A stretch of 64,000 nt of DNA from Thermophilibacter provencensis (GTDB lineage Bacteria; Actinomycetota; Coriobacteriia; Coriobacteriales; Atopobiaceae), in the NCBI RefSeq assembly GCF_900128445.1, contig NZ_LT671417.1, positions 939,547 to 1,003,546 of the forward strand, given 5' to 3'. The notes beneath the pieces were generated by a model. That model saw only the letters and a list, made by a program, of their open reading frames with translations, was not told where the DNA came from and did no database searches. A program made the translations under genes and the position numbers. This document shows, piece by piece, positions 50,430-54,080 of this stretch (position 1 is the stretch's first letter; every line of letters begins with the position of its first letter).

Positions 50430-50807
50430 CTACGCGGTGAGAAAAACGAGCATCTCTACCACGGTTCCCACCGCGAGAAAGCTCACGGCGGCCACGCTCA
50501 CGGCGGCCCCCCAGGGCAGGCCGACCTCGTGCCAGAACGACCGGAAGGTGTCGTCCTCGTGCGGGGTCATGATGCCGTCCGGGCGGTCGCGCCCGGAGAC
50601 GAGAAGGCCGCAGCCCCCGGTGACGAGGCAGAGCGACCCCACCACAAAGAGCAGCTTTCGGGCCCAGTCGAGCCCCGTGCGCCAGTCGAGGCCGTGGGCG
50701 AGGAAGGCAAAGACGAAGGCGACGATCCCGAGCCCAAGCGCGGCGATGGCGCCGAGCCGAAGCGATTTCACGACGCCCGAGAGCGCCTTCCTCTTTCCGT
50801 TGCCCAT
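50430..50807 (-). CDS. Small three-helix membrane protein
   Basis: The protein has 125 residues with three hydrophobic segments (LGAIAALGLGIVAFVFAFLA, LLFVVGSLCLVTGGCGLLV and WGAAVSVAAVSFLAVGTVVEMLVFL). A short polar loop containing HEDDTFRSFWHEVGLP lies between the second and third. No family was recognised. The start at 50807 follows GGGAGGACCC. It is divergent from the esterase-like operon. Confidence 0.7.
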   Translation of the reverse strand: MGNGKRKALSGVVKSLRLGAIAALGLGIVAFVFAFLAHGLDWRTGLDWARKLLFVVGSLCLVTGGCGLLVSGRDRPDGIMTPHEDDTFRSFWHEVGLPWGAAVSVAAVSFLAVGTVVEMLVFLTA

Positions 50808-51010
50808 GGGTCCTCCCTCTGCCATATTAGGGTCGCTGCCAGCGAGCCTGCGGGCACGAAGCATTGTGTTCCAGATGTGCGCGGGGCGCAAATCACAGGC
50901 CCCATCATTTCCATTTCGTTCAGGCCTTACGCGCGAAATACACAGGCGCGGCCCATAAGCGCTAGAATACGGCTTTGCTTTTGATAGTCCGTACTCATAG
51001 GGGAGTAACT

Positions 51011-52399
51011 ATGGACAAGAAGATGGTCGTTCGCCACAGCGAGGTTCTCGGAGAGGATCTCGATGTCATCGTGTATGGTACCGCCGGTCAGCCCGTCATG
51101 GCGTTCGCCCCGCTCGGGCAGCGCCCGGAGAGCCTCGAGGAGGTCGGGCTTGTCGACGAGCTCTCCGACTACCTCGACGCCGGCGTGATTCAGCTCTTCA
51201 GCGTCAGCAACGTTGACGGCGAGTCCTGGGGCTCCGATGGCTACGCCGTCGAGCGCGCCGCCCGCCAGGAGGCGTACTATCAGGCGGTCTGCGAGGAGAT
51301 CGTCCCGCTCGTCGCCGAGGTGAGCGGCTCGGGCGCCCGTCCGCTGGCCCTGGGCTTCGACCTGGGCGCCACCCACGCCGCGGTCTTCGCGCTGCGCCGC
51401 CCGGACCTCTTCCAGGGCTGCGTCTGCCTGTCGGGCGCCTATGACGCCAGCCGCTACTTCGGCGACTGGATGGATGCCACGCTCTACGACAACACGCCGT
51501 GCGCGTTCCTTCCCAACATGCCGACCGACCACCCCTACATCGCGCTCTACAACCAGCGCCAGCTGCTGTTCTGCTGCGGCCAGGAGGGGAGCGAGGCAGA
51601 CAGCCTGCGCACCACGCGCGAGATAGATGCCCAGCTCCAGCGCCTGGGCGTCGAGGCCTGGTGCGACTACTGGGGCGGCGACGTCTCGCACACCTGGTTC
51701 TGGTGGAAGAAGCAGATCCGCTACTTCATGCCGATCGTGCTCGAGGACGTGGAGAAGACCACGGCAGCCGAGAAGGCCGCTGCCAAGAAGAAGGCGCCTG
51801 CCCGCAGGCGCGCCGCCGCGAAGAAGCCGGCCGCCAAGAAGGCCGTCGCGAAGGCTGCCGAGAAGGACGATGCGGTGACGGAGGAGAAGCCGGCCGCCAA
51901 GAAGCCTGCCGCGAAGAGGGCAGCCACCGCCAAGGCCACGGCTGGTGCCGCCGTCAAGTCCGCCGCGGAGGAGAAGCCGGCCGCAGCCAAGAGGCCGGCA
52001 GCGAAGAAGGCTGCGGCTGCGGAGAAGTCCGAGCCCGCCAAGAAGCCGACCGCCGCAAAGGCGGCCAAGGCCGCCGAGCCCGCCGAGCCCGCCGAGGAGA
52101 AGCCCGCCGCCAAGCCTGCCGCCAAGAAGACCGCCGCCAAGGCGACGACGAAGGCCGCGGCCGCCAAGGCCACGGCGACCAAGACCGCCGCCAAGGCGAC
52201 GACGACCGCGAAGGCCGCCACGACCAAGGCGCCGGCCGCGAAGTCCTCCACGGCGACCAAGACCGCCACGACCAAGGCTGCCACGACCAAGGCCGCCGCC
52301 ACGAAGAAGACCGCCGCCGAGGCGCCCGCGGCCAAGAAGCCGGCCGCCAAGAGGACGACGCGCTCGACCGCGAAGAAGCAGGACACGAGCGCCGAGTAG
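51011..52399 (+). CDS. Esterase-like pseudoenzyme with histone-H1-like tail
   Basis: The protein has 462 residues. Residues 1-~245 have the alpha/beta-hydrolase esterase fold (VIVYGTAGQPVMAFAP, the elbow GFDLGATHAAVFALRRPDLF, GCVCLSGAYDASRYFGDWMD and a late DVSHTWFWW). At the nucleophile elbow, where related esterases have GxSxG, Asp117 replaces Ser, so hydrolysis by the usual route is unlikely. Residues ~247-462 form an AAKKPAAKK/TTKAAATK-type tail like bacterial H1 or AlgP, which could bind DNA or polyanions. The stop codon abuts the start of an ATP-grasp gene. The ATG at 51011 has GGGGAG upstream. Confidence 0.8.
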   Translation: MDKKMVVRHSEVLGEDLDVIVYGTAGQPVMAFAPLGQRPESLEEVGLVDELSDYLDAGVIQLFSVSNVDGESWGSDGYAVERAARQEAYYQAVCEEIVPLVAEVSGSGARPLALGFDLGATHAAVFALRRPDLFQGCVCLSGAYDASRYFGDWMDATLYDNTPCAFLPNMPTDHPYIALYNQRQLLFCCGQEGSEADSLRTTREIDAQLQRLGVEAWCDYWGGDVSHTWFWWKKQIRYFMPIVLEDVEKTTAAEKAAAKKKAPARRRAAAKKPAAKKAVAKAAEKDDAVTEEKPAAKKPAAKRAATAKATAGAAVKSAAEEKPAAAKRPAAKKAAAAEKSEPAKKPTAAKAAKAAEPAEPAEEKPAAKPAAKKTAAKATTKAAAAKATATKTAAKATTTAKAATTKAPAAKSSTATKTATTKAATTKAAATKKTAAEAPAAKKPAAKRTTRSTAKKQDTSAE

Positions 52400-53626
52400 A
52401 TGAACTTCGTCTTTGTCTCTCCGCAGTTCCCCGAGGTCTACTGGAAGTTCTGCGCCGCGCTCCGTCGCAACGGGGCGCGCGCCCTCGGGATTGGGGACAC
52501 GCCCTACGACGCCCTGGCCCCCGAGGTCAGGGCGTCGCTCGATGAGTACTACTGGGTGTCGGACCTCGGCAACTACGACGAGGTCTTTCGTGCCGTGGCG
52601 TTCTTCTCGTTCAAGTACGGCAAGGTGGACTGGGTGGAGTCCAACAATGAGCACTGGCTCGCCCAGGACGCGCGCCTGCGCGAGGACTTCAACGTCCGCA
52701 CGGGACCGCTTCCCGCTCAGGTCGCCACATGGCAGAGCAAGGCCGCCCAGAAGCCGCTCTACGCCGCGGCAGGGGTCCCGACGGCCCGGCAGACGCGTCT
52801 CACCACCTTCGACGAGACGCGCTGGTTCATCGGTGAGATGGGGCACTTCCCCGTCTTCGCCAAGCCGGAGGTCGGCGTGGGGTCGGCGGGGGCGCGCCTG
52901 CTCGCGAGCGACGGCGACCTACGCGACCTCATAGCCGAGCACGGGGACGTTCCGTACGTGGTCGAGCAGTACGTCGAGGGCGACATCTGCTCCTACGACG
53001 CCCTCCTCAACAGTCGGGGCGAGCCCCTGCTCGAGAACCAGGAGGAGTTCCCGCCCTCGATGGCCGACGTCGCCCAGCGTCAGCTCGACCTGAGCTACCG
53101 CTCCCTGCCGAGCGTCGACCCCGCGCTCGCCCGTGCGGGCCGCGCGCTCGCTCGATCGTTCGGACTTGCGAGCCGCTTCGTCCACATGGAGTTCTTCCGC
53201 CTCTCCCACGATCGCCCCGGCCTGGGCGGCGCCGGGGACTACGTGGGGCTCGAGGTGAACGTCCGGCCGCCCGGGGGCTCGACCCCCGAGATGATCTGCC
53301 ACGCGCATGGCATCGACGTCTACCAGGCGTGGGCGGACATGGTGTGTCATGACGAGGTGCGCTGCGAGCCGTCGGCAGATCCCGCCGTCTGCGTCTACGC
53401 GGGCAGGCGAGACGTCCACCGCTACCTGCGGACGCACGACGAGGTCATGGAGCGATGGGGAGGCGCCATCGTCTCGTGCGGGCGCGTTCCCGCCGCGCTC
53501 TCGGATGACCTAGGAGACCAGCAGTACACGGCGCGCTTCGGGACCTCGGAAGAGGCTGACGAGTTCGTCGCGTACGTCCAGGAGAGGAGGCACTTTGGCC
53601 ATGATGGTCCGAAGGGCGAAAGATGA
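52400..53626 (+). CDS. ATP-grasp ligase
   Basis: The protein has 408 residues with a carbamoyl-phosphate-synthase-like ATP-grasp domain: FPVFAKPEVGVGSAGARLL (glycine-rich loop), PYVVEQYVEGDICSYDAL, and the metal-binding YVGLEVNVRPPGGSTPEMI. An N-terminal domain has VSPQFPEVYWKFCAALRRNGARALGIGD. It would form an amide or ester bond between a carboxylate and an amine or thiol; substrates are unknown. The ATG directly follows the stop of the esterase-like gene (zero gap), so the proteins probably act together. Confidence 0.88.
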   Translation: MNFVFVSPQFPEVYWKFCAALRRNGARALGIGDTPYDALAPEVRASLDEYYWVSDLGNYDEVFRAVAFFSFKYGKVDWVESNNEHWLAQDARLREDFNVRTGPLPAQVATWQSKAAQKPLYAAAGVPTARQTRLTTFDETRWFIGEMGHFPVFAKPEVGVGSAGARLLASDGDLRDLIAEHGDVPYVVEQYVEGDICSYDALLNSRGEPLLENQEEFPPSMADVAQRQLDLSYRSLPSVDPALARAGRALARSFGLASRFVHMEFFRLSHDRPGLGGAGDYVGLEVNVRPPGGSTPEMICHAHGIDVYQAWADMVCHDEVRCEPSADPAVCVYAGRRDVHRYLRTHDEVMERWGGAIVSCGRVPAALSDDLGDQQYTARFGTSEEADEFVAYVQERRHFGHDGPKGER

Positions 53627-54080
53627 GGACCTGCCCGGCGTGACGAGACTGCTGCGGCAGGTGCTGGAGGTCCATGCCGCGGGGCGTCCCGACCTCTTTC
53701 GAGCGGGCACTCGCAAGTACACGGACGAGGAGCTGCTGGCTATCTTTGCCGACGACGGGCGCCCGGTCTTCGTGGCAGTGGAGGAGGATGCGGCGCCGGG
53801 GGAGGTGCTCGGCCACGCGTTCTGCGAGGTCCAGGACTTTCGCTCGAGCAACAACATGCAGCCGATCCTCTCGCTTTACGTGGATGACATCTGCGTGGAC
53901 GAGCGGGCGCGCGGGAGGCACGTGGGGACGGCGCTCTATCGGCGCGTCGTCGAGCACGCGCGCGAGCTCGGGTGTCACAACCTGACGCTCAACGTGTGGT
54001 CGTGCAACCCCGGGGCGCGCGCGTTCTATGACGCGATGGGGCTCGTCCCGCAGAAGACGTGCCTGGAGCAGGTGCTGTGA
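53601..54080 (+). CDS. GNAT-family acetyltransferase
   Basis: The protein has about 159 residues: VRRAKDEDLPGVTRLL at the N-terminus, ILSLYVDDICVDERARGRHVGTALYRRVVEHARELG (the acetyl-CoA pyrophosphate loop RxxxxG/A), and LTLNVWSCNPGARAFYDAMGL. The substrate is unknown. The start is uncertain: AGGAGG is 4 nt before a TTG at 53595 and 10 nt before the ATG at 53601. It overlaps the end of the ATP-grasp gene. Confidence 0.88.
   Translation: MMVRRAKDEDLPGVTRLLRQVLEVHAAGRPDLFRAGTRKYTDEELLAIFADDGRPVFVAVEEDAAPGEVLGHAFCEVQDFRSSNNMQPILSLYVDDICVDERARGRHVGTALYRRVVEHARELGCHNLTLNVWSCNPGARAFYDAMGLVPQKTCLEQVL

Follow-up and report, generated by a model that had tools for sequence, protein, structure and literature searches.

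The gene at positions 51011-52399 of the window, i.e. the whole 64-kb stretch of Thermophilibacter provencensis DNA that was analysed, encodes an esterase-fold domain with Asp at the position of the Ser nucleophile, joined to a long polycationic tail of the H1-like type and directly followed by the gene of an ATP-grasp enzyme resembling L-amino acid ligases. The reading that we favour, and to which we give even chances, is that a former Ser esterase has become a catalytically altered, likely non-hydrolytic partner of this putative ligase, with a tail that would tether it to a polyanion. The features of the window referred to below are:

50939-50968, plus strand: promoter-like site 5' of the esterase gene, a consensus match only (9/12 matches)
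51011-52399, plus strand: whole gene, esterase-fold domain with Asp117 and H1-like tail, with an orthologue in 29/31 genomes of the genus
51011-51745, plus strand: alpha/beta-hydrolase (esterase D / PF00756) domain, residues 1-245, assigned by Pfam score, AlphaFold2 model and fold match
51359-51361, plus strand: codon of Asp117, at the nucleophile-elbow position
51593-51595, plus strand: Glu195, candidate catalytic acid, kept and invariant in alignment A2
51689-51691, plus strand: His227, catalytic-His position, kept and matched in the alignment to the H-x-W His of CE1 chain 7b5v
51746-52396, plus strand: Lys/Ala/Thr/Pro-rich low-complexity tail, residues 246-462, defined by composition, net charge (+36) and in-frame indels
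52400-53626, plus strand: L-amino-acid-ligase-like ATP-grasp enzyme, its first base directly after the esterase stop
53595-54080, plus strand: GNAT acetyltransferase (PF00583), next after the ATP-grasp gene and adjoining DUF1846 in genome G005

The open reading frame starts with ATG at 51011, ends with the TAG that closes at 52399 and specifies 462 amino acids. The esterase fold proposed in the initial annotation is borne out by the match to PF00756 (Esterase), which scores 26.2 bits for the protein (cut-off 22) and 28.9 bits for the domain by itself, and by the AlphaFold2 model of the domain (61 sequences; pLDDT 95.3, pTM 0.92), which matches the feruloyl esterase 5vol with Z 23.6; feruloyl esterases, S-formylglutathione hydrolases, Ag85 proteins and MPT51 make up its top fold matches (Z 20-24, rmsd 2.5-3.2). 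Haloalkane dehalogenase and epoxide hydrolase folds do not occur among the 50 structural matches listed. The long minus-strand open frames (639 and 221 aa) are explained by GC-rich, stop-poor codons, and a tail due to an antisense or frame artefact was rejected, as it is the plus frame that has the domain homology and only in-frame indels. The genus, one of gut bacteria, is taken here as Thermophilibacter / Olsenella-like Atopobiaceae (31 genomes, named matches at 69-87% identity), and each of its 29 orthologues carries both Asp117 and the tail. A phylum-wide search retrieved matches at E <= 1e-20 in 29/396 genomes, and the esterase fold is present in 94 of 140 family genomes; relatives beyond the genus mostly have Ser at the nucleophile position and, outside Atopobiaceae, also lack the tail. 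A sequencing error or single-strain oddity, which Ser and no tail in the closest relatives would have indicated, was rejected on the 29/29 genus orthologues.

The motif GFDLGA puts Asp at residue 117, in the column that profile alignments match to the Ser of G-x-S-x-G in S-formylglutathione hydrolase and CE1 chains, so that the Ser-to-Asp change first noticed at the elbow holds. The Ser nucleophile expected of PF00756 serine esterases is replaced by Asp in 29/29 genus orthologues, whichever elbow variant they bear (GFDLGA, GFDMGA, GFDAGA, GCDMGA, GCDAGA or GADMGA). The residues aligned with the catalytic His and acid are retained: His227 in 29/29 genus rows, 48/48 other family rows (42 Ser, 3 Ala and 3 Asp) and 10/10 Gly-type rows, and Glu195 in 29/29, 45/48 and 10/10, respectively; their catalytic roles are putative, as read from the alignment. 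Residue 228 is Asp in 0/29 genus rows versus 48/48 of the others, being Thr, Ser or Asn in 28/29, and W194 and G192 are also altered in the genus alongside Asp117. Since the other Asp lineages retain D228, these pocket changes are not required by Asp. The domain had been called non-catalytic from the outset; this is likely but unproven, because His227 and Glu195 stay in all 29 orthologues, and Asp nucleophiles function in other alpha/beta hydrolases.

The history of the position was followed on a tree of 172 distinct domains (short row L189 left out), built with the nucleophile column excluded. Ser occupies it in 126, Asp in 32, Gly in 11 and Ala in 3, with at least eight changes on the tree: three to Asp (the genus, L069, and L073 with L076), three to Ala and two to Gly, the last two residues being incapable of serving as nucleophile. 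A second tree of 52 rows, also made without this column, gave identical change counts; the inner nodes of both trees are weak, with 11/49 inner branches open in the second. A paralogue clade (L080, L082-L090; 34-39% identical) has Gly in 10/10 rows, no ligase nearby and, in place of the Lys/Ala tail, an Ala/Glu/Arg-rich one, coiled-coil-like by eye and short in L086.

By profile match (hmmsearch; 4wd3 best, E 4.9e-18) and by a model of pLDDT 91.7 (fold Z 29.4 to 3vot and 29.2 to 4wd3), the predicted product of the downstream gene, which the initial annotation had overlooked, has an ATP-grasp fold most like that of L-amino acid ligases and a putative ligase activity. The gap between the two genes is 0 in seven and -1 in one of the eight named genus loci. 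The ligase gene is found in 79/140 family genomes, and at the named loci beyond the genus it occurs somewhere in 54/72 and directly downstream on the same strand in 42 of the 68 with room; the pair recurs across gut Firmicutes and Atopobiaceae. In G005 (one contig, 99% complete) both genes are absent, and at the syntenic place DUF1846 and GNAT lie 114 bp apart (L247, G005:C1:1814000-1832000), the holin-like gene being absent too. This last corresponds to a small membrane-protein-like frame at 50430-50891 on the minus strand of the window, between DUF1846 and the esterase gene, conserved in part of the genus and matching Holin-X weakly (18.6 bits, cut-off 28.4). Neighbour clustering, which relied on a crude gene caller yielding mostly antisense frames, gave no third conserved partner, and a search of open-licence PubMed Central found no description of the esterase/ATP-grasp pair.

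Among the 60 non-genus family rows with known ligase state, the genome encodes the ligase for 42/44 Ser rows and for 4/16 Ala, Asp or Gly rows (G117 being scored through its Gly copy, though that genome has another, higher-scoring copy). Fisher's test, which ignores kinship, gives p 9e-9 for this association, and the independent-pairs test a median p of 0.5 on few pairs (3 on starred branches). Loss of Ser thus usually accompanies loss of the ligase, which suggests that the Ser esterase activity serves the ligase pathway. The genus of the window is the exception, having Asp with the ligase retained, so that either Asp takes part in catalysis or the domain does something else for the ligase.

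The first of these options would make Asp117-His227-Glu195 a working triad in the style of haloalkane dehalogenases and epoxide hydrolases, or leave a water activated by the His, acting on a ligase-linked substrate. The three residues are all invariant in the genus, Asp is common to a whole clade of 29 and was reached three times, and the ligase stays in the operon, unlike in most other non-Ser lineages. On the other hand, the same position also went to Ala three times and to Gly twice, which indicates loss over retooling; the protein scores 19.5 bits against PF00561, the Pfam family that we take to hold the known Asp-nucleophile enzymes, below the cut-off of 25.8; and a cap domain is not evident in the secondary structure of the AlphaFold2 model. 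A catalytic Asp appears unlikely.

The tail comprises 217 aa (K 22%, A 40%, T 14%, P 7%, E 7%) with zero aromatic residues, and is the sole stretch of such composition in the window. By composition it is a Lys/Ala/Pro-rich C-terminus of the H1-like (AlgP/PhaF) type; membership in the H1 family itself was rejected, as NF038053, the NCBIfam model for bacterial histone H1-like proteins, scores 12.5 bits, far under the cut-off of 80. The variation in length that had been anticipated for it is evident: the 27 complete genus tails (those of L009 and L010 run off their contigs) extend 157-255 aa beyond residue 245. Six close genus pairs differ by 73 tail indels in total, each of a length divisible by three, and their domains align without gaps; L001 and L002 differ by 11 tail indels at 96% domain nucleotide identity. 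The tail therefore varies quickly in length without losing its frame, charge or composition. The slippage invoked in the initial annotation fits these in-frame changes, but inserted pieces are 0-100% like the adjacent piece, a duplicated-neighbour signature that is only partial. Across the 172 rows, a Lys/Ala/Pro/Thr tail is present in 61, another tail in 12 and none in 99. Since 28 Ser-type rows bear a tail of the first kind, the tail is not tied to the loss of Ser and is no marker of a non-catalytic form; for the same reason we rejected tail and Asp as a single linked innovation.

The tail could also be without a specific ligand, i.e. a slippage-prone extension kept as a solubility or entropic linker, separate from the domain. 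Its fast change in length, as between L001 and L002, speaks for this, as do the similar stretches on the unrelated GlgB and L31 proteins described below and the many relatives in which the tail has been lost or is absent. Against it stand the constancy, across the complete genus tails, of composition, charge (+27 to +48), AAG codon use and absence of aromatics, the frame preserved in every indel, and the almost invariant start of the tail, DVEKTTAAEK. We regard a tail of this kind as unlikely.

As to what the tail might bind, polyphosphate is possible, because PPK1 is encoded in 31/31 genus genomes and because AlgP, an H1-like protein of Pseudomonas, is reported to reside on polyphosphate granules, its KPAA tail being needed for granule spacing (PMC9239181). 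DNA and RNA are equally possible as putative targets. Acidic wall polymers, also proposed at first, are unlikely, since the domain begins at residue 1-3 and a signal peptide is not seen by eye. In polyphosphate kinase 1 of T. provencensis itself (L248, G000:C3:1936000-1940500), the first 45 or so residues are rich in Lys and Asp. Our search of open-licence PubMed Central for lysine-rich tails in Coriobacteriia found no description of the present case.

Used as a protein query against the T. provencensis genome, the tail retrieved itself alone, bias filters possibly hiding others; three degenerate patterns led to further Lys/Ala-rich stretches. The five matches of one pattern comprise one in GlgB, one in ribosomal protein L31 and three (L251-L253) without a Lys/Ala-rich frame. 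The two proteins concerned are:

G000:C3:357502-359691, minus strand (L211; further loci L214-L242): GlgB, glycogen branching enzyme (NCBIfam 790 bits, cut-off 741), with a Lys/Ala-rich C-terminus (Lys/Ala/Pro/Thr tail)
G000:C3 near 303530, minus strand (L249): ribosomal protein L31 (PF01197), with a Lys/Ala/Glu-rich extension of about 75 residues

The GlgB tail measures 49-78 aa in 28/28 genus copies readable to their own stop, a count that leaves out L241 (cut by the contig), G010 (L243) and G019 (matches short of the C-terminus). A PRC-barrel-like protein (21.0 bits, marginally below the cut-off of 21.2) carries a similar stretch, and a GH13 protein a short N-terminal Lys/Ala-rich one. The statement that such tails are otherwise found on DNA-compacting proteins thus fails in T. 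provencensis, where GlgB and L31 bear them. It could be speculated that the H1-like tails of Atopobiaceae are address tags to a shared polyanion-rich compartment, which would send GlgB, L31 and the ligase-esterase module to the nucleoid edge or to a polyphosphate granule, the genus esterase having exchanged Ser for a role as docking subunit of the ligase, either non-catalytic or Asp-reprogrammed; we consider this broader scheme quite doubtful.

The nearest pairs with full tails have dN/dS values of 0.047 (L001/L002), 0.045 (L005/L006) and 0.037 (L020/L025), and the remaining close pairs reach 0.50; the median over all 406 genus pairs is 0.34, which is not low, and codon bias may depress dS and inflate the ratio. 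A decaying relic that owes its persistence to chance and to translational coupling with the ligase would agree with the long branch leading to the genus (0.46-0.56 changes per site) and with the altered pocket residues, but is very improbable given that no stop codons within the genus matches were reported, that many positions are invariant and that dN/dS is 0.04-0.05 in close pairs.

We therefore return to the non-hydrolytic partner of the ligase. This reading draws on the fixation of Asp, the repeated changes of the nucleophile, to Ala and Gly included, the conserved gene pair and the low dN/dS of close pairs; on the pocket changes that accompany Asp117, the tail kept in frame and the joint absence of both genes from G005; and on the non-catalytic precedent of MPT51/FbpC1 in the same fold group. 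Full retention of His227 and Glu195 argues against a pure scaffold, which would not need both, and the non-Ser forms elsewhere, mostly without the ligase, speak against the reading as well, the genus form being exceptional among them; so do the Asp nucleophiles of other alpha/beta hydrolases and the median dN/dS over all genus pairs. With no Ser-type hydrolysis, the domain would retain its ligand pocket and could still bind the ligase or the substrate or product of that enzyme, and may so regulate, scaffold or protect the ligase step; the physical partnership is putative, being deduced from gene adjacency, which is not binding. The presumably disordered polycationic tail would anchor this module to a polyanion, be it nucleoid DNA, RNA or polyphosphate, analogous to the role thought to be played by the KPAA tails of AlgP and PhaF.

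At least eight nucleophile changes with the rest of the active site kept amount to a natural experiment on enzymes becoming partners or sensors. The pair itself, common in gut Firmicutes and Atopobiaceae, indicates a pathway of which our literature search found no description, and metabolic enzymes bearing H1-like tails would allow a test of whether such tails do more than pack DNA.

The protein shares with the esterase D / S-formylglutathione hydrolase / feruloyl esterase / Ag85 group the whole-domain fold and the positions of the His and the acid, and differs from PF00756 esterases in the Asp in place of the Ser nucleophile, the long polycationic tail and the adjoining ATP-grasp ligase gene. 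MPT51/FbpC1 of Mycobacterium tuberculosis (1r88) has the same fold (Z 22.6, rmsd 2.7 over 224 residues) and is said to have been presented by Wilson in 2004 as a non-catalytic alpha/beta hydrolase; it differs from the present protein in being exported, and is not known to have an H1-like tail or a ligase partner. A search of open-licence PubMed Central on MPT51 and on pseudoenzymes returned nothing direct. The putative ligase has the ATP-grasp fold in common with the L-amino acid ligases 3vot of B. licheniformis and RizA (4wd3), from which it is set apart by an identity of 14-16% and by its pairing with an esterase-fold protein. AlgP and PhaF of Pseudomonas likewise end in Lys/Ala/Pro repeats of similar length, the tail here being richer in Thr and Glu than their KPAA repeat; for AlgP, PMC9239181 gives a tail of 195 aa and an N-terminal part predicted to be helical, in place of which the T. 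provencensis protein has an alpha/beta hydrolase.
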